Assembly (NCBI RefSeq): GCF_021390495.1
Contig: NZ_JAJEJP010000001.1
Span: 3,472,001-3,536,000 of the forward strand
Origin: Paraburkholderia sp. ZP32-5
GTDB lineage: Bacteria > Pseudomonadota > Gammaproteobacteria > Burkholderiales > Burkholderiaceae
Direction: 5' to 3'
Length of the DNA: 64,000 nt
The notes under the pieces are model-generated. The model was not told where the DNA came from. It did no database searches and saw only the letters and a list, made by a program, of their open reading frames with translations. Each line of letters opens with the position of its first letter. Position 1 is the first letter of the stretch. Position numbers and translations under genes: made by a program. This document shows, piece by piece, positions 14,310-29,939 of this stretch.

Positions 14310-14386
<77 letters not shown>

Positions 14387-17088: not shown

Positions 17089-17393
17089 GTGACAGACGAA
17101 AGGTTTCTGCAGATGGCCGGAGAGAATCGATCGAAAGCCCTCATCGCCAATGCGCTGTTGGAGCCGCGCTACGCGCACGACGGGATTGGCGCAGCGGTTG
17201 CCGTTTCTCGCACGAAAACGTGAAAGCGAGTGGCGATACACAGCTTTTGCTCATCTGGAAGGCAGAAACCGGCTACTCGGAAAATGTGTCCCGCCGACTC
17301 GGGCAGTATCTGGACAAACGTGAAATCACCGACGAACGCAAGGAGTCGTTCGTCGGCGCACCGTGCTTAAAGTTCCGCATAGGACGGCAATAG
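17089..17393 (+). pseudogene. Decayed second copy of the DUF3396 gene
   Basis: From GTG 17089 a 44-codon frame reads ENRSKALIANALLEPRYAHD-GIGAAVAV, closely matching residues about 10-40 of the intact DUF3396 protein at 15872 (ENQWKALVPNALLEPRHSHE-GIGAALVV). It stops at 17221. In another frame, KASGDTQLLLIWKAETGYSE and KREITDERKESF (to 17393) line up with AASGDVLTFVWHNGKASQPF and SLKENDRFDFYF of the intact copy. About 20 residues are deleted between them and everything after is lost. The 3' end overlaps the last codons of the convergent Imm52 gene. This is a tandem duplicate in decay. Confidence 0.7.
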
Positions 17394-18092
17394 ATCCTGA
17401 TCAACCAGACGGATTTCGATACGGTTTGCGACCTCGACATGTTCCGTGTTGTCGACCGAAAACACCGCATCGGTAACGCTGACGATGATTGTGCCGGTCT
17501 GCTCCCTGCCGGGACCTGGAACCGGAATCAACGCACGCGCTTCAGGAACCTGCTGCACGGTGACGACTTTAGGCAGATACAGCATCCAGCCAACACCGGG
17601 TTTGTCGTCGAACACCCGCTTCTCAAAATATTCCGCCGGAGACACTTCCGCATAGATGGGGTTGAACTCATCTGCAACGCAGCTTGTGTATTGGGTGAAC
17701 GCATCGAAATCGATCAACGCATGTTCGCCTGTTAACGATACGGCGAGTGAATTCAATTCACCCGATGGGCCAATGTGGCAGGTCATGCTGCCGCCCATTT
17801 CTGATCCTTCGGGGTGGGCCCAGATCCCAACATACGTTTGATCGGGCGAATTTCGAAACGACTCTTTTAAAACCGCGATTGCGGCGGTTGACGCGGCATC
17901 GGCATCAAAGGCGCGATAGAGCCTGGCTTCCTTCTGCGTTTGGCCTTTTAGATACCACTCGTCTTTCCGGAGTTCGGGCTGTCGCTCGCCGATTATTTCA
18001 ATGATCTTACCCAGCCGGAACAGAACCGATTCGAAATCGATCGGCGACAATGCGGTGTCGCGAAACTGCGTGTTGATTTCCATCGTCGACAT
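17367..18092 (-). CDS. Imm52 family immunity protein
   Basis: This 241-residue protein follows the Tox-REase-5 toxin gene with a 7-base gap, the standard toxin-then-immunity order. It has no signal peptide, as expected for protection against a nuclease acting in the cytoplasm. The segments FRNSPDQTYVGIWAHPEG and the C-terminal VSPAEYFEKRVFDDKPGVGW with LPKVVTVQQVPEA resemble the Imm52 family, which accompanies Tox-REase-5 toxins. Two Met codons (18092 and 18083) could serve as start; GAGG precedes the first by only three bases. Family naming is by recall and neighbour identity. Confidence 0.75.
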   Translation of the reverse strand: MSTMEINTQFRDTALSPIDFESVLFRLGKIIEIIGERQPELRKDEWYLKGQTQKEARLYRAFDADAASTAAIAVLKESFRNSPDQTYVGIWAHPEGSEMGGSMTCHIGPSGELNSLAVSLTGEHALIDFDAFTQYTSCVADEFNPIYAEVSPAEYFEKRVFDDKPGVGWMLYLPKVVTVQQVPEARALIPVPGPGREQTGTIIVSVTDAVFSVDNTEHVEVANRIEIRLVDQDLLPSYAEL

Positions 18093-18099
18093 GTGTGCC

Positions 18100-18696
18100 T
18101 CAAGGAACGACCACAGACTGAATACCCCATTGAGTTAGAAGCCGGAGCATTTTTGCACGCGTCTTCGGCCCTTGAAAATACCATGTCAGGCCTGTCGGCG
18201 GATCGTTACGAACGGCTCTGCCATGTCTCACAATCGTGGATTCCATTCCATCAAAGCCAGAAAACGACGAAGCGGCCCAAGGCATATCAAGGAATTGATC
18301 GTAGTTACCCTTCGCCTCTTGAAGCATGCATCGCGCAGCGATGAAGCCGTCGAAATCAATTGTCTTCCACTCCCATTCCTCGCTCCATCCTTCCTTTACG
18401 CTATACGGCCACCCCGTGATGCGGCCTTGATATTCGCGCGCTGCCGCGGTCATGTGATGGATGGCCTGCTTGGCTCTCCCCGTTTCCTCAGGTGGACATT
18501 TCTTGCAACGCTCGCCCGTCTTCGGCACTGCGCGCACAGCGGGTGTTGCCTTGCTGTCGTTCTTCGCGGTATCGCCGGACAGACTAGCTGTCCCGGCTGC
18601 CGTCGCTCCGCCCAACAAGACGGCTCCCACTCGCGCCAATACGGGCCCAAGTTCCGTTGCCGCTCCCTCGATTGCCGGCACTAGCAGTCCCGCCAT
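18100..18696 (-). CDS. Tox-REase-5 restriction-endonuclease-fold toxin
   Basis: The protein has 198 residues. Residues 1-45 are hydrophobic and Ala/Gly-rich (LVPAIEGAATELGPVLARVG), then a short linker with CKKCPPEETG. The nuclease domain contains EWEWKTIDFDGFIAARCMLQ-EAKGNYDQFL. That pattern (FDG, then E-A-K) is the Tox-REase-5 active-site arrangement found in T6SS DNase effectors such as Pseudomonas TseT. The start at 18696 has a strong AGGAGG eight bases upstream; further upstream Met codons have none. No PAAR, VgrG or Rhs trafficking domain is fused, so delivery probably depends on a partner. The gene after it is its Imm52 immunity gene. Confidence 0.83.
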   Translation of the reverse strand: MAGLLVPAIEGAATELGPVLARVGAVLLGGATAAGTASLSGDTAKNDSKATPAVRAVPKTGERCKKCPPEETGRAKQAIHHMTAAAREYQGRITGWPYSVKEGWSEEWEWKTIDFDGFIAARCMLQEAKGNYDQFLDMPWAASSFSGFDGMESTIVRHGRAVRNDPPTGLTWYFQGPKTRAKMLRLLTQWGIQSVVVP

Positions 18697-18792
18697 GTGT
18701 CTATCCTCCTTTGAATTCCGGATGCTCGATGTGCCAACAGACGACACTCAGATAGTCGTGAAACCGTAAGTCGGCTGGACGGCCGAGCCCGG

Positions 18793-19546: not shown

Positions 19547-20029
19547 GATCGCCTTCCGGAAAGTTTTGCATAGTCCTATAACCCTTCGCGTTTTACTGTG
19601 ACGGTGCTCAATTCTTTACGATAACGATCGCGCGGGAAAATATTGAAAAGAGATTCGAAATCCACCCGAGTCGACTCGGTCCCATTTCTCCCGGTTGAAT
19701 CGCACTCTAATTCGAATCAATAGATTTACGAAAAAAGTCCGAATCAATCCATTGAAAAGATCCTTGTACACATCCGCCTGCAATCACCCGGACACACTGC
19801 GCTGCTAGCGAACTCGCTTACCGTTCCATTACCCCCAACTCCCTCGCGAGCACCAACCTCTCACGCCCGAATCAGGTGCGCGCATTGACTTACATCGGTG
19901 CACACCTCCCCGCCACAGGGCAAAAACTCAAGGCTCAAGCCCAGCCACAGCACCACTTCGGCCCTGGCACACTTCCCGCTTTAAAGAGCACGCAAGGAGC
20001 CGGCGCAACACCCGGTTCAGACAATCTGT
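19547..20029. other. AT-richer intergenic region between the island and the guanidine operon
   Basis: No convincing gene is present. The left half (19550-19770) is notably AT-rich compared with flanking DNA and includes a 14-bp perfect palindrome at 19666-19679. A copy of the tRNA 3' end, which would mark the right edge of the island, was looked for and not seen. The right half should hold the promoter of the riboswitch-controlled operon; a sigma-54-like element is noted at 19965. Confidence 0.6.
19965..19980 (+). promoter_or_regulatory. Possible sigma-54 promoter of the guanidine operon
   Basis: TGGCAC followed by the GC doublet 10 bases after the GG (TGG-N10-GCT) fits the -24/-12 geometry of sigma-54 promoters. 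The -12 half is CCGC rather than TTGC, so it is two bases off consensus. It lies about 55 bases before the riboswitch. Nitrogen control by NtrC would make biological sense for an ammonia-yielding pathway, but no clear NtrC site was found. Confidence 0.35.
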
Positions 20030-20130
20030 AAATGGACGGCTAGGGTTCCGGCCTGCATCGCGCAGGCGCTGGTCCGAGAGCCGTCGACCTCTGGCGAGGT
20101 TACACGGCGGGATAAAAGCCCGGGAGAGAA
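20030..20130 (+). promoter_or_regulatory. Guanidine-I riboswitch (ykkC RNA)
   Basis: The conserved blocks of the ykkC/guanidine-I aptamer appear in order: CTAGGGTTCCG (20040-20050), TGGTCCGAGAG (20070-20080), ACACGGCGGGATAAAAGCCC (20102-20120) and CGGGAGA after it. Helices are supported by GACGGC (20035-20040) with GCCGTC (20080-20085), GCCTGC with GCAGGC (20051-20056/20062-20067), and ACCTC with GAGGT (20087-20091/20096-20100). Members of this class turn on gene expression when guanidinium binds. The next gene starts at 20186. A possible competing helix is GGGAG (20122-20126) with CTCCC (20147-20151). The expression platform was not resolved. Confidence 0.93.
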
Positions 20131-20185
20131 CGCGATGTTTGCGCTGCTCCCTGCCGTCGCTAACCGTCCCCTCCGAGGTCAACCC

Positions 20186-21256
20186 ATGTTCAAGCTCGTG
20201 CGCTGTCTTGGCATTGCCGCCGTCTCCCTCGCCACACTCGCATCAAGCCCCGCGTTCGCCGCGGGTCGCAATGATTTCAAGGTCTGCTGGACCATCTACG
20301 CCGGCTGGATGCCGTGGGGCCAGGCAAAAACCCAAGGCATCGTCTCCAAGTGGGCGAAGAAATACGGCATCAACGTCGATGTCGTGCAGTTGAACGACTA
20401 CGTCGAATCGATCAATCAATACACGGCCGGCAAGTTCGACGGCTGCGCGATGACCAATATGGATGCGCTGACGATCCCCGCCTCCGGCGGCGTCGATTCG
20501 ACCGCGCTGATCGTCAGCGACTATTCGAACGGCAACGACGGCGTGCTGATCAAGGGCAAAGGCAAACAGATCGCCGATCTGAAGGGCCAGGAAGTCAATC
20601 TCGTGCAGTTCTCCGTGTCGCACTACCTGCTCGCGCGCGCACTCGAAAGCGCGCATATGAGCGAGCGTGACCTGAAGGTCGTGAACACATCCGATGCCGA
20701 CATCTCCGGCGCCTTCGCAACGCCTACGGTGCACAACGCGGTCACGTGGAACCCGATGCTCGCGGACCTGAAAGCACAGCCGAACGTCACCGAAGTCTTC
20801 GACTCGAGCAAGATCCCCGGCGAGATCATGGACATGATGGTCGTCAACACGAAGACGCTGCAGCAGAACCCGGCACTCGGCAAGGCACTGACCGGCGCGT
20901 GGTTCGAAATGGTCGCGCTGATGCACACCAATTCCGCCGAAAGCACCTCCGCGCTGACCGCGATGGCGAAGGCCTCGGGCACCGATCTCGCGAACTTCAA
21001 GGGTCAACTGTCGACCACCGCGCTCTTCTATACACCGCAAGCCGCGCTCGATTTCGTCACCAGCCCCGACATGCCGAAGATCATGACGCGCGTCGCGAAG
21101 TTCTCGTTCGATCACGGCCTGCTCGGCCAGGACGCGAAAAGCGCGGACGCGGTCGGCATGGCATTCGACAAGGGCGTCGTGATCGGCAACAAGAACAACG
21201 TCAAGCTGCGCTTCGACCCGAGCTACGTCGCGATGGCAGCGGCGGGCAAGCTCTGA
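20186..21256 (+). CDS. ABC transporter substrate-binding protein, urea-carboxylase-linked (probable guanidine)
   Basis: The 356-residue periplasmic protein has a signal peptide (LVRCLGIAAVSLATLASSPA then FAAG). It belongs to the NMT1/SsuA-like fold, with KVCWTIYAGWMPWGQAKTQG at the start of the mature protein. This subgroup is found specifically with 'urea carboxylase' operons. The start at 20186 has GAGG 7 bases upstream; an ATG at 20135 would put extra residues inside the riboswitch leader. It is the first gene behind the guanidine-I riboswitch, so guanidine is the most likely ligand. Permease and ATPase genes follow. Confidence 0.9.
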   Translation: MFKLVRCLGIAAVSLATLASSPAFAAGRNDFKVCWTIYAGWMPWGQAKTQGIVSKWAKKYGINVDVVQLNDYVESINQYTAGKFDGCAMTNMDALTIPASGGVDSTALIVSDYSNGNDGVLIKGKGKQIADLKGQEVNLVQFSVSHYLLARALESAHMSERDLKVVNTSDADISGAFATPTVHNAVTWNPMLADLKAQPNVTEVFDSSKIPGEIMDMMVVNTKTLQQNPALGKALTGAWFEMVALMHTNSAESTSALTAMAKASGTDLANFKGQLSTTALFYTPQAALDFVTSPDMPKIMTRVAKFSFDHGLLGQDAKSADAVGMAFDKGVVIGNKNNVKLRFDPSYVAMAAAGKL

Positions 21257-21304
21257 GACCGGCATTGCGGCCTTTCTGCAAGGCTTTAAAACAAGGCGCC
21301 CACC

Positions 21305-22117
21305 ATGCGACTCATCAATCGACATCCGAGCCGGATCGGCGGCCTGATGCTGCTCCTGCTGCCGTTCGTCGTGCTTTGCGCGGTCTATTTCACCGGCTCG
21401 TCGATGCGGCTCGCGGCCAATCCCGATGACAAGCTGCTGCCGAGCGCCGCGCAAATGAGCGATGCGGTCAAGACCGTCGCGTTCACCGAAGACCGGCGCA
21501 CCGGCGAATATCTGCTGTGGGCCGATACGGTGTCCAGCTTGCGGCGCCTCGGCATCGGTCTCGTGGTGAGCGCGCTGATCGCGCTGACCGCCGCGATCGC
21601 CACCGGCTCGCTGCCGCTCGTCAGCGCGACGCTGTCGCCGTTCATCACCGTCGTGTCGATGGTGCCGCCGCTCGCGGTGCTGCCGATCCTGTTCATCGTG
21701 TTCGGGCTCGATGAGTTGTCGAAGGTCGTGCTGATCGTGTTCGGCATCACGCCGATGATCATTCGCGACCTGCATGCACGCGCTCGCGAGATTCCGGCCG
21801 AGCTGTGGGTCAAGGCGCAGACGCTCGGCGCCACCAGCTGGACGCTGATTCTGCGTCTGGTGCTGCCGCAACTGCTGCCGCGCCTGCTGGTCGCGATGCG
21901 TCTGTCGCTCGGCGCGGCATGGCTCTTTCTGATCGCCGCCGAGGCGATCGCGTCGACCGACGGCCTCGGCTATCGCATCTTCCTCGTGCGCCGCTATCTG
22001 TCGATGGATCTGATCCTGCCGTACGTCGCGTGGATCACGCTGCTCGCATGGCTCACCGACGAACTGCTGCGCCGGATCGCGCGGTGGTCCTTCCCCTGGT
22101 ATTGCGGAGGCGCGTGA
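21305..22117 (+). CDS. ABC transporter permease (probable guanidine importer)
   Basis: The 270-residue inner-membrane protein has about six helices and the BPD_transp_1 cytoplasmic EAA loop (ELWVKAQTLGATSWTLILRL), placing it in the SsuC/TauC permease group. The stop TGA overlaps the ATG of the ATPase gene (TGATG), so the two are translationally coupled. It lies 48 bases after the binding protein gene in the riboswitch operon. Substrate is inferred from operon context only. Confidence 0.93.
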   Translation: MRLINRHPSRIGGLMLLLLPFVVLCAVYFTGSSMRLAANPDDKLLPSAAQMSDAVKTVAFTEDRRTGEYLLWADTVSSLRRLGIGLVVSALIALTAAIATGSLPLVSATLSPFITVVSMVPPLAVLPILFIVFGLDELSKVVLIVFGITPMIIRDLHARAREIPAELWVKAQTLGATSWTLILRLVLPQLLPRLLVAMRLSLGAAWLFLIAAEAIASTDGLGYRIFLVRRYLSMDLILPYVAWITLLAWLTDELLRRIARWSFPWYCGGA

Positions 22118-22908
22118 TGATCGAAGTGCGCAACGTATGGAAAGAGTATGGCGACCAGGTCGTGCTCGAACGCCTGAATCTGACCGTCAAGGAAGGCGAG
22201 TTCTGTTCGATGGTCGGTGCATCGGGCTGCGGCAAGTCGACGTTTCTGCGGCTGCTGCTCGGCCAGGAGCGACCGACTCGCGGTGAGATCCTGCTCGACG
22301 GCAAGCCGTTGCCCGGTGAGCCGGACCCGCATCGCGGCGTGGTGTTTCAGCGCTACTCGGTGTTCGATCACCTGAGCGTGCTGCGCAACGTGATGCTGGG
22401 GCTCGAGCTTTCGCAAGCGAAGCTCACGGGCCGGCTCTTCGGCGCGCGGCGCCGCGCGGCTGCCGACGAAGCCGCCGCGATGCTCGAACGCGTGGGTCTG
22501 GGTGCGTCCTTGCACAAATTTCCACAGCAACTGTCGGGCGGCATGCAGCAACGTCTGGCGATCGCCCAGGCGCTGATGATGAAGCCGCGCGTGCTGCTGC
22601 TCGACGAGCCGTTCGGCGCGCTCGACCCCGGTATCCGCCGCGATATGCACGAGCTGCTATCGGACCTGTGGCGCGAAGCGAAGCTCACCATTTTCATGGT
22701 CACGCATGACCTGAAAGAGGGCTTCACGCTGGGCAGCCGCGTGCTGGTTTTCGACAAGGTGCGCGTCGATCCGCAAGCGCCCGGCGCGTATGGCGCGCGC
22801 ATCACCTACAACATTCCGCTCGACCGCAGCCGCGAATCCGCATCCGCCGTTCATCTCGCTCAGGCAGCGGTGCAAGGCGCGGCGAGTGTTGAAGCGATCT
22901 CTGACTGA
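22117..22908 (+). CDS. ABC transporter ATP-binding protein (probable guanidine importer)
   Basis: The 263-residue ATPase has Walker A GASGCGKST, Q-loop VVFQRYSVFDHLS, signature LSGGMQQRLAIAQAL, Walker B VLLLDEPFGALDP and switch His in MVTHD. It starts at 22117 by overlap with the permease stop; reading further upstream in this frame runs through the permease gene. It energises uptake with the preceding permease and binding protein. The gene is 12 bases before the first DUF1989 gene. Confidence 0.95.
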   Translation: MIEVRNVWKEYGDQVVLERLNLTVKEGEFCSMVGASGCGKSTFLRLLLGQERPTRGEILLDGKPLPGEPDPHRGVVFQRYSVFDHLSVLRNVMLGLELSQAKLTGRLFGARRRAAADEAAAMLERVGLGASLHKFPQQLSGGMQQRLAIAQALMMKPRVLLLDEPFGALDPGIRRDMHELLSDLWREAKLTIFMVTHDLKEGFTLGSRVLVFDKVRVDPQAPGAYGARITYNIPLDRSRESASAVHLAQAAVQGAASVEAISD

Positions 22909-22920
22909 AGGAATTCGAAG

Positions 22921-23625
22921 ATGAAATTGCTGCTTGAAGAACTCGTTCCCGGCGGCGGTCATACCTCGCTGATCGTCAAACGCGGCCAGTCGTTGCGCGT
23001 GACGGACCTGCGCGGTGGCGCAAACGTCAGCGTGATGATGGTCAACGCCGCGGAGAAAAGCGAACGGCTGAATCTGCCGGATTCGCTGAAGTGCCAGCAC
23101 ACGGCGAAGCTCACCGTCGGCCACTGCCTGTACTCCGACATGGGCCGCGTGCTCGCCGCGATCGTTGCGGATACCTGCGGCTGGCACGACAGCATCGGCG
23201 GCGTATCGAACGCAAGTGAAGTGCTCGAACGCTATGGCGCGGGCCGCTATCAGGAACTGCGCAACAGCTTCTATCGCAACGGCACCGACAACCTGCTCGT
23301 CGAAATGGGCAAGTGGGGCCTCTGCATCTCCGACCTGCTGATGACGCTGAATCTGTTCAGCCGTGTCGATGTCACCGACAACGGGACCTTGAAGTTCGTG
23401 CCCGGCAACTCGAAGGCCGGCGACTACGTCGACCTGTACGCGCCGATGAACACGCTCGTCGTGCTCACGGCGATTCAGCATCCGCTCGACCCCAATCCGG
23501 AATACGCGCCGAAGCCCGTGAAGCTCGAACTGAGCGACGCGCCAGCCGAGGTCGCCGAAATCTGCCGCACCGCCTGCGAAGAAAACGCACGCGGCTTCAT
23601 CAATACCGAGCGGTTCTTTCTTTGA
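22921..23625 (+). CDS. DUF1989 protein, urea-carboxylase-associated (carboxyguanidine deiminase subunit)
   Basis: The 234-residue protein belongs to the urea-carboxylase-associated DUF1989 family. [20 protein letters not shown] contains the conserved Cys and His expected for metal binding, and [15 protein letters not shown] and [20 protein letters not shown] are family segments. In guanidine-degrading bacteria two such proteins form a deiminase (CgdAB) that converts carboxyguanidine to allophanate with release of ammonia. This is the first of the pair. I cannot decide by eye which is subunit A or B, so no symbol is given. Spacing to both neighbours is 12-14 bases. Confidence 0.88.
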
Positions 23626-23639
23626 GCGGAGACCGACCC

Positions 23640-24281
23640 ATGACCAGCACGCTTACCGTCAGCGAAAAACAGCCTGAAAACGCGGCCTATCGCGAAACAC
23701 TCGCCGCGGGCGAGCCATGGCTTCACGAAGTGAAAGCCGGCCAGACACTGCGCATCGTCGACCTCGAAGGCAATCAGGCCGTCGATACGCTGTTCTACAG
23801 TCTCGCCGATCCACGCGAGCGTTTCGATCCGCAGCGCACGTTGCGCCGGCAACAAAGCCTTTATCTGGGCTCGGGCTCGGTGCTGTATTCGAACCTCGGC
23901 AATCCGATGCTGACGATCGTCGCCGACACCTGCGGCCGTCACGATACGCTCGGCGGCGCCTGCGCGCAGGAGAGCAACACGGTGCGCTATGCGCTGGAAA
24001 AGCGCTACATGCATAGCTGCCGCGACAACTTCCTGCGTGCGTGCGCGCACGACGGACGTCTGGCGAAACAGGACATCGGCGCGAACGTGAACTTCTTCAT
24101 GAACGTACCGGTGACGGCCGAAGGCGGACTCACGTTCGAAGACGGCATTTCCGCGCCGGGCAAGTACGTCGAGCTGCGCGCCGAGATGGACGTGATCGTG
24201 CTGATTTCTAACTGCCCGCAGCTGAACAATCCGTGCAACGCGTACAACCCGACGCCCGCCGAGCTGCTGATATGGAACTGA
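23640..24281 (+). CDS. DUF1989 protein, urea-carboxylase-associated (second carboxyguanidine deiminase subunit)
   Basis: This 213-residue paralogue of the preceding protein shares [39 protein letters not shown] and [20 protein letters not shown]. The last segment plus [14 protein letters not shown] is typical of the second urea-carboxylase-associated family. GGAGA lies 8 bases before the ATG at 23640. It is expected to pair with the 22921 product as the heteromeric carboxyguanidine deiminase, so the carboxylase product goes to allophanate rather than being used directly. A hairpin and a 190-base gap separate it from the carboxylase gene. Confidence 0.88.
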
Positions 24282-24376
24282 CGCGCATCCGCAACTGGCT
24301 CTTTTTCGTCATGCTGGTTCGCGCCGGGCGCTGTGTCGCCGTGACGCGCGAACAACTGCGCCGAGCCCAGCGCTGA
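24272..24376 (+). CDS. Candidate 34-residue ORF in the gap before the carboxylase
   Basis: An ATG overlapping the end of the preceding DUF1989 gene opens a frame reading [19 protein letters not shown] then [15 protein letters not shown]. It has one short hydrophobic helix and a basic tail. Overlap with the upstream stop would allow coupled translation. There is no independent ribosome site and I know of no homologue, so it may be chance. Confidence 0.25.
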
Positions 24377-24402
24377 CGCAACCGTAACTGCAACCGCGAC
24401 CG

Positions 24403-24424
24403 CGGCCGTGGACGACCACGGCCG
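24403..24424 (+). other. Perfect hairpin in the intra-operon gap
   Basis: A 9-bp perfect stem (24403-24411 with 24416-24424) closes a 4-base loop ACGA. There is no T-run, so it is unlikely to be a full terminator. It could stabilise or process the mRNA between the deiminase and carboxylase genes. Confidence 0.55.
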
Positions 24425-24471
24425 GCACCTCCCACGGCGGGACGGCCCGCCTCTGATTCAACACACCTTCC

Positions 24472-27400
24472 ATGTTCGAGAAGATTCTGATCGCCAATCG
24501 CGGCGCTATCGCGTGCCGCATTCTGAGAACGTTGCGCGAGCTCGATGTCACCGGCGTCGCGATCTATGCGGAAGCCGACCGCGCGAGCCGTCACGTCAGC
24601 GAAGCGCCTGTCGCGCATGGTCTCGGCGAGGGTCCGGCCGCGACGACCTATCTCGACACGGCGAAGATCCTCGAGATCGCGCGTCGCGAGAACGTGCAGG
24701 CGATCCATCCCGGCTATGGCTTTCTATCGGAAAACGCGGCGTTCGGCGAAGCCTGCGAAGCGGCCGGCATCGCGTTCATCGGACCGACGCCCGCGCAGTT
24801 GCGCGCGTTCGGTCTGAAGCACACAGCTCGCGAAATCGCCGCCAACGAAGGCGTGCCGATGCTGCGCGGCACCGGGCTGCTCGACGATCTGCCGGCGGCG
24901 CTCGCAGCCGCGCAGACCATCGGCTATCCGGTGATGCTGAAAAGCACCGCGGGCGGCGGCGGTATCGGCATGCGGGTGTGCTGGGATGCCGATGAACTCG
25001 GCGCCCATTTCGACGCGGTCAAACGGCTCGGCGAGAACAACTTCAGCGATGCCGGCGTGTTTCTGGAGAAGTACATCGAACGCGCGCGGCATCTGGAAGT
25101 GCAGGTATTCGGCGACGGTAAAGGCGGAGCAATCGCACTCGGCGTGCGCGATTGCTCGGTGCAGCGGCGCAATCAGAAAGTGCTGGAGGAAACGCCCGCG
25201 CCCTGTCTGCCCGAAGGCATGTCGGCCGCGTTGTGCGAGGCCGCGGTCAAGCTCGCGAAGGCGGTCGACTATCGCTCCGCCGGCACCGTCGAGTTCGTCT
25301 ACGACAGCGCCGCGCAACAGTTCTACTTTCTCGAAGTCAACACGCGTCTGCAGGTCGAGCACGGCGTCACCGAACAGGTGTGGGGCGTCGACCTCGTGCG
25401 CTGGATGATCGAACTCGCGGCCGGCACGCTCGCGCCACTACACGAACTCACGGCGAATCTGACGCCGCGCGGGCACGCGATTCAGGCCCGGCTCTATGCC
25501 GAAGACCCGGGCCGCGATTTCAAACCGAGCCCCGGTCTGCTGACCGATGTCGCGTTCCCGCCCGCGGACGGCAGCGCGCTGCGCATCGATACGTGGATCG
25601 AGGCCGGTTGCGAAGTGCCCCCGTACTTCGACCCAATGCTCGCCAAAGTGATCGCGTGGTCGCCGACCCGCGACGAAGCGCGCACCGCGCTCGACCATGC
25701 ATTGGCAAACACACGCCTCTACGGCGTCGAAACGAATCGCGACTATCTGCGCCAGATTCTGAGCGCCGCGCCGTTCGCATCGGGAGAGCCGTGGACCCGT
25801 TGCCTTGAAGGGCTCAAGTACCGGGCGACGACCGTCGAAGTGATCAGCGGCGGCACGCAAACCACGGTGCAGGACTATCCGGGCCGGCTCGGCTATTGGG
25901 CGGTCGGCATCCCGCCGTCGGGACCGATGGACGATCGCGCGATGCGGCTCGGCAATCGCCTGCTCGGCAACGCGGCCGATGCCGCCGCGCTCGAAGTGAC
26001 GATGAGCGGACCGACGCTGCGCTTCAATACCGATGCGGTGATCGCTGTAACCGGCGCGGAAATCCCCGTACTGCTCGACGACGTCGCGCAGCCGCTGAAT
26101 ACGACGATCGCTGTGCGCGCCGGTTCGACGCTGACACTCGGCACGATCCGCGGCCGAGGCGCGCGCGCTTATCTATGCGTGCGCGGCGGCTTCGATGTCG
26201 CCGACTATCTCGGCAGCCGCAGCACCTTCACGCTCGGTCAGTTCGGCGGACATGGCGGCCGCGCGATCCGCGCGGGCGACGTGCTGCACCTCTATCCGCT
26301 CGACGATACGCAGGCCGGCGCGGTGCTCGCGCATGCGCCCACGCTCGATAGCGTGCGCACCCTGCGCGTGATTTACGGCCCGCACGGCGCGCCCGAATAC
26401 TTCAGCCAGCGCTATATCGAACGGCTGCTCGACACCGAATGGGAGATTCACTTCAATTCGAGCCGCACCGGTGTGCGCCTGATCGGACCGAAGCCCGAAT
26501 GGGCGCGCGAAGACGGCGGCGAAGCGGGCCTGCATCCGTCGAACATTCACGACAATCCGTACGCGATCGGCGCGGTCGATTTCACCGGCGACATGCCCGT
26601 GATTCTCGGCCCCGATGGCCCGAGCCTCGGCGGTTTCGTGTGTCCGGTGACGATCATCGAAGCGGACCTGTGGCAGATCGGCCAGCTGAAAGCCGGCGAC
26701 AAGATCCGCTTCGTGCCGGTCGGCGTCGATGAAGCGCGCGCGGCCGCGCGCCAACGTCTGCGCGAACTGGAGAGCCTCACGATCGAGCAAAGCGCGCCGC
26801 TCAACACCGCAGGCACACTGACGTCGCCGGTGGTGCTCGATACCGGAGCGGATCACGAACGGCTCGTCGCGCGCGTGTCGGGCGACACACATCTGCTGCT
26901 CGAAATCGGACCGGCCGAACTCGACCTCGTGTCGCGCTTCCGCGGCCATGCGCTGATGCAGTCGCTGGAAGCCATGGCGCTGCCCGGCGTGATCGACCTG
27001 ACGCCTGGCATTCGCTCGCTGCAGATTCACTACCGGCCGGAGGCGTTGCCGCTTGCCGATCTGCTCGACATCGTCGCGCGCGCGTGGAGCCAGGTGCTGT
27101 TGCACAAGGACCTGCGCGTGCCGTCCCGCATCGTTCATCTGCCGCTGTCGTGGGATGACCCGGCATGCCAGCTCGCGATCGAGAAATACATGACCACGGT
27201 GCGCAAGGACGCACCGTGGTGCCCGAGCAACCTCGAATTCATTCGCCGTATCAACGATCTCGATTCGCTCGACGCGGTCAGGCAGATCGTCTTCGATGCG
27301 AGCTATCTGGTGATGGGACTCGGCGACGTGTATCTCGGCGCGCCGGTCGCGACGCCGCTCGACCCGCGCCACCGGCTGGTGACGACCAAATACAACCCGG

Positions 27401-28086
27401 CGCGCACGTGGACCGCGGAGAACTCCGTCGGTATCGGCGGCGCGTATCTGTGTGTGTATGGGATGGAAGGACCCGGCGGCTATCAGTTCGTCGGCCGCAC
27501 GTTGCAGATGTGGAATCGCTACCGCAAGACCGCGGACTTCGCCGGGCAGCATTATCTGCTGCGCTTCTTCGATCAGATCCGCTTCTACGAAGTATCGGCC
27601 GACGAGCTGTTGCGCATCCGCGCCGACTTTCCGCTGGGCCGCTATCCGCTGCGAATCGAAGAGGCCGAGCTGTCGTTGCCGGACTATCAGGCCTTCCTCG
27701 CCGACGAATCGGCTAGCATCGACGCGTTCCGTTCGCGCCAGCGCACGGCCTTCCAGGCGGAGCGTGAACGGTGGCGTGAAGCCGGCGCATCCGAGCAGAC
27801 GTTCGAGCCGCCGCTTGCGCAGGATACGGAGCTCGCGGCGCTGGAAGATGGCGAAGTCGCAGTAGACAGCGAAATCGCCGGCAGTCTGTGGCAAGTAAAA
27901 GTGAAGCCCGGCGAGACAGTCGATGCCGGCGACGTGCTGCTCGTCATCGAGTCGATGAAGATGGAAATCTCCGTGTGCGCGCCGTGCGCCGGAACCGTCG
28001 CGCAAATTCACGTGGCGCCGGGTTCGCCGGTGCGAGCCGGGCAGCGCGTGGCGGTCATCGCACGTCAGCAGAACCTCAATCAATAG
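24472..28086 (+). CDS. Biotin-dependent guanidine/urea carboxylase
   Basis: The protein has 1204 residues in four parts. Biotin carboxylase (1-450): MFEKILIANRGAIACRILRT, ATP-grasp with GGGGIGMRVC, FLEVNTRLQVEHGVTEQVWG. AHS2/KipA (about 455-760): TTVQDYPGRLGYWAVGIPPS. AHS1/KipI (about 790-1000): HYRPEALPLADL region, followed by the substrate loop RHRLVTTKYNPARTWT. Biotinyl domain (about 1130-1204): VIESMKMEI with biotinyl Lys1163. No allophanate hydrolase domain is fused, unlike the yeast enzyme. Usually annotated urea carboxylase; the riboswitch and deiminase genes make guanidine the likely substrate. Asp964 in LDPRHRL may be the position reported as Asp in guanidine and Asn in urea carboxylases, but I could not align it. 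Confidence 0.95.
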   Translation: MFEKILIANRGAIACRILRTLRELDVTGVAIYAEADRASRHVSEAPVAHGLGEGPAATTYLDTAKILEIARRENVQAIHPGYGFLSENAAFGEACEAAGIAFIGPTPAQLRAFGLKHTAREIAANEGVPMLRGTGLLDDLPAALAAAQTIGYPVMLKSTAGGGGIGMRVCWDADELGAHFDAVKRLGENNFSDAGVFLEKYIERARHLEVQVFGDGKGGAIALGVRDCSVQRRNQKVLEETPAPCLPEGMSAALCEAAVKLAKAVDYRSAGTVEFVYDSAAQQFYFLEVNTRLQVEHGVTEQVWGVDLVRWMIELAAGTLAPLHELTANLTPRGHAIQARLYAEDPGRDFKPSPGLLTDVAFPPADGSALRIDTWIEAGCEVPPYFDPMLAKVIAWSPTRDEARTALDHALANTRLYGVETNRDYLRQILSAAPFASGEPWTRCLEGLKYRATTVEVISGGTQTTVQDYPGRLGYWAVGIPPSGPMDDRAMRLGNRLLGNAADAAALEVTMSGPTLRFNTDAVIAVTGAEIPVLLDDVAQPLNTTIAVRAGSTLTLGTIRGRGARAYLCVRGGFDVADYLGSRSTFTLGQFGGHGGRAIRAGDVLHLYPLDDTQAGAVLAHAPTLDSVRTLRVIYGPHGAPEYFSQRYIERLLDTEWEIHFNSSRTGVRLIGPKPEWAREDGGEAGLHPSNIHDNPYAIGAVDFTGDMPVILGPDGPSLGGFVCPVTIIEADLWQIGQLKAGDKIRFVPVGVDEARAAARQRLRELESLTIEQSAPLNTAGTLTSPVVLDTGADHERLVARVSGDTHLLLEIGPAELDLVSRFRGHALMQSLEAMALPGVIDLTPGIRSLQIHYRPEALPLADLLDIVARAWSQVLLHKDLRVPSRIVHLPLSWDDPACQLAIEKYMTTVRKDAPWCPSNLEFIRRINDLDSLDAVRQIVFDASYLVMGLGDVYLGAPVATPLDPRHRLVTTKYNPARTWTAENSVGIGGAYLCVYGMEGPGGYQFVGRTLQMWNRYRKTADFAGQHYLLRFFDQIRFYEVSADELLRIRADFPLGRYPLRIEEAELSLPDYQAFLADESASIDAFRSRQRTAFQAERERWREAGASEQTFEPPLAQDTELAALEDGEVAVDSEIAGSLWQVKVKPGETVDAGDVLLVIESMKMEISVCAPCAGTVAQIHVAPGSPVRAGQRVAVIARQQNLNQ

Positions 28087-28100
28087 CTGGATAGATCACC

Positions 28101-29939
28101 ATGACGTCATTCGATCTGCGTCTTCCGACACTTCGCGCCGCCTACCGCGCGGGGAGTCTCACGCCGCGCGGGCTCGTCGCCGAACTGCTCGATAAAGCCG
28201 CCACGCTGAACCCCGAGTTCAATCTTTTCATCCATCTTCTGAGCGTTGAAGAAGTCGCGCCGTATCTCGACTGGCTCGACACTCAGGACATCGACAAGCT
28301 GCCGCTGTATGGCATTCCGTTCGCGATCAAGGACAACATCGATCTCGCCGGCATCCCGACGACAGCCGCCTGTCCCGCGTTCGCTTACACACCCACGGAA
28401 TCGGCGACGCTGGTCGCGCAGTTGATCGCGCTCGGCGCGATACCGCTCGGCAAGACCAATCTCGATCAGTTCGCGACCGGTCTGAACGGCACGCGTTCGC
28501 CGTACGGCAAATGCCGCAATAGCGTGCATCCGGACTATCCGTCGGGCGGCTCGAGCGCCGGTTCGTCGCTGGCGGTCGCACTCGGTGTGGCGAGCTTCGC
28601 GCTCGGTACCGACACGGCCGGTTCCGGCCGCGTGCCGGCCGCGCTGAACAATCTGATCGGACTCAAGCCGAGCAAGGGCTTGTTGTCCACCGCGGGTGTC
28701 GTGCCCGCGTGCCGCACGCTCGACTGCGTGACGTTTTTCACCGCGACCGCGCAGGAAGCCAGCGAGCTGCTGGCATTGACCGCGCGCGCCGATCCGCGCG
28801 ACGCATACAGCCGCAAGAATCCACAATGGAACAGCGCACGCGCGTTCGGCACGCCCGCCGCGTTCCGCTTCGGCGTGCCCGCGCAACTGGAATTCGCGGG
28901 TTGCACGGAGAGCCCGGCCTTATTCGCGAAAGCGCGTGCGTTGCTCGAAGAAGCCGGTGGAGAAGCAGTCGAAATCGACTTCGAGCCGTTCGTCGAAGCG
29001 GCCAGACTGCTCTATCAAGGTCCGTGGGTCGCCGAACGTTACAGCGTGGCCGGCGAATTGATGACGACGCAGCCCGACGCGGTACTGCCGGTCATCCGCG
29101 ATGTGCTGGCCAAGGCGCCGGGTGCCACCGCAGTCGAGCTATTTCGCGCGCAGTATCGTCTGCAGGAATTGAAAGCACGCTGCGATGCTTTGCTCGAATC
29201 GCTGGACTTCGTGCTGACGCCCGCGTATCCACGCGCGGTGACGCTCGACGAACTGGAGCGCGATCCGATCGGCCCGAACTCCTTACTGGGCTATTACACG
29301 AACTTCATGAATCTGCTGGACTACGCGGCCGTCGCGACGCCGACCGGTTTCATGAAGAACGGCCTGCCCTGGGGTGTCACCGTGTTCGGCCGCGCGATGA
29401 CCGACCAGTATCTGCTGGGCGTCGCCGATCTGCTGCAACGAAACAGCGCGGTGCCATGCGTCGGCGGTCAACCGCCGTTGCCTGCCGAGCCGCGCACCGC
29501 AAGCCACGACCGGATGCGGATCGTGGTCTGCGGCGCGCACATGCAAGGCTTGCCGCTCAATCGCGATCTGGTTGCGCGCGGCGCGCATCTGGTGCGCGCC
29601 ACGCATACCGCCGCGCATTACCGGTTAGCGGCGCTGCCCGCGTCGGCGGACGGCACACGACGTCCAGGCATGTGGCGCGTAGCCGGCAACATCGAAAGCG
29701 ACCCGTCGCACAATGGTGTAGGGATCGCGGTCGAAGTATGGGAGATGCCCAGTTCGGAGTTCGGTTCATTCATCGCGACCGTGCCCTCGCCTCTCGTGCT
29801 CGGCAAGGTCGAACTCGCGGACGGCTCGTGGATAACCGGCTTCCTGTGCGAACCGTATGCGATACAAGCCGCAACGGATATCTCCACGTTCGGCGGATGG
29901 CGAGCCTGGCTCGCCAGTGAGTGCAGTTCCGTTTCCTGA
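28101..29939 (+). CDS. atzF: Allophanate hydrolase
   Basis: The enzyme cleaves allophanate to two ammonia and two CO2, finishing the pathway. The N-terminal amidase domain carries the Lys-Ser-Ser triad: Lys77 in PFAIKDNIDLAG, Ser151 in SGGSSAGSS and Ser175 in TDTAGSGRVPA. After residue about 465 a C-terminal domain (MRIVVCGAHMQGLPLNRDLV to the end) matches the AtzF C-terminal domain that completes decarboxylation. The full length of 612 residues is normal. It follows the carboxylase stop by 14 bases and ends the operon. Confidence 0.95.
   Translation: MTSFDLRLPTLRAAYRAGSLTPRGLVAELLDKAATLNPEFNLFIHLLSVEEVAPYLDWLDTQDIDKLPLYGIPFAIKDNIDLAGIPTTAACPAFAYTPTESATLVAQLIALGAIPLGKTNLDQFATGLNGTRSPYGKCRNSVHPDYPSGGSSAGSSLAVALGVASFALGTDTAGSGRVPAALNNLIGLKPSKGLLSTAGVVPACRTLDCVTFFTATAQEASELLALTARADPRDAYSRKNPQWNSARAFGTPAAFRFGVPAQLEFAGCTESPALFAKARALLEEAGGEAVEIDFEPFVEAARLLYQGPWVAERYSVAGELMTTQPDAVLPVIRDVLAKAPGATAVELFRAQYRLQELKARCDALLESLDFVLTPAYPRAVTLDELERDPIGPNSLLGYYTNFMNLLDYAAVATPTGFMKNGLPWGVTVFGRAMTDQYLLGVADLLQRNSAVPCVGGQPPLPAEPRTASHDRMRIVVCGAHMQGLPLNRDLVARGAHLVRATHTAAHYRLAALPASADGTRRPGMWRVAGNIESDPSHNGVGIAVEVWEMPSSEFGSFIATVPSPLVLGKVELADGSWITGFLCEPYAIQAATDISTFGGWRAWLASECSSVS

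Follow-up and report, generated by a model that had tools for sequence, protein, structure and literature searches.

The window analysed here, a 64,000-nucleotide (nt) stretch of Paraburkholderia sp. ZP32-5 whose own numbering is used for all coordinates, contains an operon of seven genes, all on the + strand. It encodes an ATP-binding cassette (ABC) importer, two DUF1989 proteins, a carboxylase and the allophanate hydrolase AtzF (Table 1). The intergenic gaps are shorter than 50 nt (14 nt between carboxylase and AtzF), except for 190 nt ahead of the carboxylase gene. A search with cmscan detected a guanidine-I riboswitch aptamer at the head of the operon (RF00442, model positions 1-107 of 107, E = 8.7e-16), and this was the sole RF00442 match at E <= 0.001 across the 9.09-Mb genome. 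A second element, the guanidine-II (mini-ykkC) riboswitch, lay in the 190-nt gap, 21 nt before the carboxylase start (RF01068, model positions 1-48 of 48), with two ACGR-loop hairpins and a score above gathering. A sequence-only reading of this DNA had placed a guanidine-I aptamer directly ahead of an ABC importer, two DUF1989 proteins, a biotin carboxylase and AtzF; the family matches and the RF00442 score, well over its threshold, confirmed this arrangement. The guanidine-II riboswitch had been overlooked, and its presence strengthens the guanidine reading; the operon thus has two classes of guanidine riboswitch. We are highly confident that these genes form a guanidine assimilation operon under two guanidine riboswitches.

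Table 1. Features of the operon and its two riboswitches, in window coordinates (SD, Shine-Dalgarno sequence; bp, base pairs)
Feature	Position	Strand	Evidence
Guanidine-I riboswitch aptamer	20029..20128	+	RF00442, 94.2 bits (gathering 63), full length
Aptamer hairpin P2; 5' strand GACCUC (20086-20091) complementary to first-gene SD	20086..20101	+	Sequence, folds, comparative tests
GAGGUC with SD of importer gene; proposed P2 partner, 6 bp	20175..20180	+	Fold; complement of at least 6 bp here in 25/25 loci
Periplasmic substrate-binding protein, putative guanidine importer ('urea' in NCBIfam)	20186..21256	+	TIGR03427, 544.9 bits (cut-off 333.9)
ABC permease	21305..22117	+	PF00528; closest NCBIfam families are taurine/nitrate-type permeases, below cut-off
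ABC ATP-binding protein	22117..22908	+	PF00005
CgdA-type carboxyguanidine deiminase subunit (DUF1989, UAAP1)	22921..23625	+	TIGR03425, 320.6 bits (cut-off 205.95); PF09347
CgdB-type carboxyguanidine deiminase subunit (DUF1989, UAAP2)	23631..24281	+	TIGR03424, 336.3 bits (cut-off 284.7); PF09347
Guanidine-II (mini-ykkC) riboswitch, operon-internal	24404..24450	+	RF01068, 41.8 bits (gathering 32)
Predicted guanidine carboxylase (named urea carboxylase), Asp703 and Asp952, no SD seen upstream	24472..28086	+	TIGR02712, 1831.9 bits (cut-off 1303.85); residues; SD test
Allophanate hydrolase AtzF, amidase and C-terminal domains	28101..29939	+	TIGR02713, 750.9 bits (cut-off 511.05); PF01425 and PF21986 (AH_C); best solved relative 4gyr

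For the substrate of the operon, we focused on the carboxylase (1204 amino acids, aa). It is the sole protein of the genome over the TIGR02712 cut-off, and the weaker partial matches were other biotin enzymes or pieces. On the - strand of the same genome, three separate pieces in reverse order (C2:2634445-2637903; 518, 296 and 166 bits) fell below this cut-off and probably represent a different set of carboxylase or 5-oxoprolinase-type genes. The urea amidolyase of K. lactis is a eukaryotic fusion enzyme for which we know of no such operon. The window carboxylase could be aligned over its full length to the carboxylase part of this enzyme (PDB 5i8i, 3va7); Asp952 stood opposite its Asp1584, whereas Asp703 stood opposite its Asn1330. 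In the excerpted text of PMC11410670, guanidine carboxylases carry Asp at K. lactis position 1584 plus Asp at 1330, and in that of PMC12186494 the signature residue of guanidine carboxylases is aspartate, whereas urea carboxylases have asparagine. The window protein thus has the guanidine signature, Asp rather than Asn at 1330 together with Asp at 1584. Both aspartates were present in 80/80 relatives (the best 80 of at least 573 confirmed, mostly Paraburkholderia, Caballeronia and Pseudomonas), and the nearest named carboxylase among the matches listed was that of Paraburkholderia tuberum (90% identity).

The default names tell a different story. NCBIfam calls TIGR02712 'urea carboxylase', TIGR03427 'putative urea ABC transporter' and TIGR03424/03425 'urea amidolyase associated', and these names, like the full-length alignment with K. 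lactis urea amidolyase, would fit a true urea amidolyase operon in which urea carboxylase and allophanate hydrolase degrade urea. We consider such an operon extremely improbable and rejected it on the replacement of Asn1330 by Asp703, the two guanidine riboswitches inside the operon and a separate urease in the genome, whose alpha subunit scored above its cut-off; the CgdAB-type genes also speak against it. The Asp/Asp signature, the sole TIGR02712 protein and the separate urease make it very probable that the urea names are mistaken here. The same residues, riboswitches and urease support the earlier proposal of guanidine rather than urea degradation, and its warning that default annotation would mislead held up. 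It had also described the operon as hidden; this applies to the urea naming of guanidine genes, but the novelty it implied does not stand, as both the re-annotation and the dual-riboswitch operon are already published (excerpts of PMC12186494 and PMC12508155).

The other gene products agree with a guanidine pathway by family membership. The substrate-binding protein belongs to the TIGR03427 importer family, the two neighbouring DUF1989 genes match the two known CgdAB clades, and AtzF carries both the amidase and the AH_C domain. In the proposed pathway, the ABC importer would bring guanidinium into the cell, the biotin carboxylase would convert it to carboxyguanidine at the expense of ATP, CgdAB would deiminate carboxyguanidine to allophanate and one NH3, and AtzF would hydrolyse allophanate to CO2 and two NH3. 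These substrates, and a yield of three NH3 per guanidine, are assigned by analogy with published family members, for which the release of three ammonia per guanidine is described (PMC11410670, excerpt). Guanidine would turn the operon on through guanidine-I at its head and guanidine-II before the carboxylase gene. The preference of the carboxylase for guanidine, the transport of guanidine and the response of the operon to it are likewise predicted from sequence. One point weighs against the assignment of the importer: its best solved relatives bind sulfonate, taurine or nitrate. Guanidine transport is suggested by genomic context, because these relatives match at weak scores and bind other ligands.

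An operon of this kind could instead serve mainly for guanidine detoxification, or act on a substituted guanidine such as methylguanidine, rather than obtain nitrogen from guanidine. Guanidine is potentially toxic (PMC12186494, excerpt), both guanidine and methylguanidine are ligands of the guanidine-II riboswitch of Vreelandella boliviensis (PMC12508155, excerpt), and the genome also has a guanidine-II-linked SugE-type exporter candidate. However, a periplasmic binding protein points to import, which would make little sense for detoxification, and the 14-nt gap between carboxylase and AtzF has no room for mgdH and mgdL, which occupy this place in V. boliviensis, the search for these genes covering this gap. 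We therefore regard this alternative as very unlikely and retain guanidine assimilation. The exporter candidate lies behind the second guanidine-II riboswitch of the genome (C1:1348219-1348265, + strand), which precedes a 106-aa small multidrug resistance (SMR) gene barely over the SugE cut-off (129 vs 126 bits). A guanidinase route in this genome was also considered and, on family scores, set aside: a single arginase-family protein, encoded outside the operon, exceeded the agmatinase cut-off (211.7 vs 174.3).

The operon is a member of an established kind, the published guanidine-I/guanidine-II operon. Like the operon of V. boliviensis (PMC12508155, excerpt), it has guanidine-I at its head, ABC genes with a periplasmic subunit, cgdA/B, guanidine-II between cgdB and gca, then gca and atzF. 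In V. boliviensis, unlike in the window, gca and atzF are separated by mgdH and mgdL, and binding and growth data are available, whereas the window operon is known from sequence; the V. boliviensis guanidine-I is specific for guanidine (apparent KD 44 uM), and its guanidine-II binds guanidine and methylguanidine alike. The enterobacterial operons of Raoultella terrigena, Erwinia rhapontici and Klebsiella michiganensis share the division of the window operon, with importer and deaminase genes behind guanidine-I and carboxylase and allophanate hydrolase genes behind guanidine-II, and in contrast to the ZP32-5 locus they come from strains isolated with guanidine as the only source of nitrogen (PMC12186494, excerpt).

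The layout recurred among the 80 relatives, whose riboswitches were identified as pattern matches and not by covariance-model scores. Two GGACGRCC loops lay at most 110 nt upstream of the carboxylase gene in 79/80 (L131 has one), and a guanidine-I pattern was present further upstream in 78/80, the two misses being L116 and L130, where the upstream DNA extends for just 139 and 1805 bases. In six relatives (L110, L114, L119, L121, L128 and L137), the guanidine-I of the operon was preceded at about 1.4-1.5 kb by a second guanidine-I pattern, giving two copies in a row. We also surveyed a family sample of 120 genomes, in which guanidine-I was found in 26 and guanidine-II in 51; two of the 51 (G026 and G045) scored below gathering and were excluded from the spacing count, leaving 49 above it. 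In 18 of the 26 guanidine-I-bearing genomes, the same strand carried a guanidine-II 1.6-4.4 kb further downstream; seven had guanidine-I pairs in divergent orientation less than 4 kb apart, and one (G075) had neither arrangement. The divergent pairs were 0.5-0.6 kb apart in six genomes (including G011, G032, G049, G102 and G106) and 3.1 kb apart in G034. We read one such pair gene by gene (L152; G118:C18:70000-89000): one guanidine-I leads to a binding-protein gene of importer type, the second to cgdA, cgdB, carboxylase and AtzF genes. The family-sample scan found no guanidine-II on the L152 contig.

How guanidine-I might control the importer gene depends on where this gene starts. The start is most likely 20186 (356 aa), and a start giving 354-358 aa was present in all 24 Burkholderiaceae relatives compared. 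An alternative ATG at 20135 is in frame with the importer, and the aptamer end GGGAG (window 20122-20137) resembles an SD for it. A matching ATG is conserved in only part of the relatives and sometimes opens another frame, so we set it aside and kept the start giving about 356 aa.

The guanidine-I class is described as transcriptional in the excerpted texts of PMC12186494 and PMC12508155. A scan with a U-run rule, which addresses intrinsic and not Rho-dependent termination, detected no terminator-like site on the + strand of the guanidine-I leader, between the aptamer and the first gene; it gave 3 sites in the region, compared with a shuffle mean of 9.2. Sequence and folds pointed to another platform. 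The aptamer hairpin P2 reads GACCUC-UGGC-GAGGUU, and its 5' strand is the exact complement of the GAGGUC that contains the importer SD. In the free fold of 20029-20215, the P2-SD pairing had a probability of 0.99-1.0, and P2's own hairpin was near 0. In growing transcripts, P2 formed first (0.97-0.98 up to 20158) and was displaced by 20178, once the SD had been made. This suggests a translational model in which, without guanidine, the P2 strand would pair with the importer SD and block translation, and guanidine would close P2 and free the SD. The proposed mechanism has moderate support, and we give the P2-SD model for guanidine-I about even odds.

A rival account, which we hold to be possible but on the doubtful side, is that guanidine-I acts on transcription through a terminator, and that the complementarity is a by-product of CCUC in P2, which resembles any anti-SD. 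Besides the published descriptions, it can draw on the ability of CCUC to pair with most SD sequences and on a GGGAG/CUCCC hairpin in the free fold, which competes with the aptamer. Against it, the leader shows no terminator-like + site by the U-run rule. Comparative data bear on the by-product view. We looked for a complement of GACCUC (at least 6 bp, G-U allowed) at 25 Burkholderiaceae loci (24 relatives and the window) and found it before the importer start in 25/25, compared with 0/148 starts of the six other operon genes, some of these control starts being approximate (if a match did not begin on a start codon, the closest one was taken). Among 177 guanidine-I sites, 103 were of importer type and 74 were not by the motif and start rule. 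The best Watson-Crick complement of P2, from the aptamer core to 90 nt into the gene, started at the SD in 98 of 102 distinct importer-type leaders, and it was uniquely best there in 92 of 102, the SD window making up about 11% of the region.

We then swapped SDs among leaders, excluding one of the 103 importer-type sites, which lacks a GACC start. The results showed that, among 80 distinct P2/SD pairs, the mean helix fell from 7.24 observed to 5.93, and 0/1000 swaps reached the observed value, with the reservation that swapping leaves relatedness in, which counts against the result. For the 38 pairs of GACCUCCA type, which come mostly from pseudomonads, the values were 8.82 observed and 7.91 swapped (0/1000). 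At 68 sites outside the importer type, a set that still includes importer-type sites missing the motif, the observed helix was 4.84 vs 4.06 swapped (0/500).

The loop of P2 followed its partner as well. Loop CCAGUU faced AACUGGAG in 25/25 sites and loop CCAGUA faced UACUGGAG in 8/8, so that a loop base outside CCUC tracks the SD partner, as U-A in the former and A-U in the latter. Further loop/SD pairs were CCAU with AUGG (L114 and L137) and CUCUG with CAGAG (L162). In a tree of 42 carboxylases (support values not examined), the CCAGUU and CCAGUA types occupied separate branches, and L149 stood apart from the other seven CCAGUA rows. By parsimony, the paired loop/SD change would have happened at least twice, because the loop types lie on separate branches. 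Loop and SD thus appear to change together, mainly in pseudomonads, which speaks against the by-product view, as does the contrast between importer and other operon starts. In divergent-type leaders (L059, L061, L062 and L066), the sequence CCGGUCUC, immediately 5' of the next gene's SD, is a perfect complement (8 bp) of the P2 region GAGACCGG; this pairing is possibly a variant of the P2-SD logic.

Several results weigh against the translational model. The guanidine-I leader was no stabler than its shuffles (z -0.83; 39/200 at least as stable). With the aptamer pairs enforced, the SD became clearly more accessible in just 8/34 Burkholderiaceae leaders, compared with 48/68 other leaders; in the window itself, accessibility rose from 0.00 to 0.25, but with a slightly extended transcript it reached no more than 0.04. 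The swap result was weak for the 42 pairs of non-GACCUCCA leaders, to which the window's group belongs (5.81 observed vs 5.59 swapped; 9/1000), and Burkholderiaceae hardly vary within this set. The loops of L108 and L133 added nothing to the P2-SD helix, and the free fold of L162 lacked that helix.

The guanidine-II riboswitch presented a different picture. This class is described as exclusively translational in the excerpted text of PMC9561414, which proposes that a P0 helix masks the SD. Like the guanidine-II of Pseudomonas aeruginosa described there, the window element has two near-identical hairpins ahead of a start codon; unlike it, with its flanking P0 helix, the window element precedes a carboxylase gene that shows no SD to hide. 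The 22 nt ahead of the carboxylase gene contained no GAGG, AGGA or GGAG in 25/25 Burkholderiaceae loci, and at these loci the mean anti-SD energy was about 0 kcal/mol at the carboxylase start, compared with means of -4.8 to -9.6 at the starts of the six other operon genes. In the window, 24472 is the first start codon of its frame, so an upstream start gives no SD rescue. The guanidine-II leader fold was mildly stabler than shuffles (z -1.51, 17/200), and both hairpins formed without ligand in the model. Unmasking of an SD, which requires a downstream SD to hide and free, would therefore not fit the window guanidine-II, because the carboxylase gene lacks an SD in 25/25 Burkholderiaceae loci.

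Outside the operon, the window also contains a likely toxin-immunity pair beside it, a Tox-REase-5 domain protein followed by an Imm52 protein (17367-18747, - strand), and a tRNA gene identified by Rfam (14310-14383, + strand, 67.4 bits).

These results add another clear case of guanidine metabolism masked by the default 'urea carboxylase' and 'urea transporter' names. More broadly, the comparisons leave an evenly balanced case that guanidine-I elements before importer operons of beta- and gammaproteobacteria are translational ON switches, with the anti-SD in aptamer P2 and loop and SD co-evolving, and that the Burkholderiaceae guanidine-II does not act by SD unmasking. We found no account of a translational guanidine-I platform in the literature searched, which included excerpts of PMC12186494, PMC12508155, PMC11410670, PMC7736828, PMC7266159, PMC6031431, PMC10043782, PMC9561414, PMC9788540 and PMC7011215; this falls short of proving novelty. 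A class called exclusively translational in the excerpted text of PMC9561414 sits here before a gene without an SD and, if the P2-SD model is true, a class usually called transcriptional would act on translation in assimilation operons.

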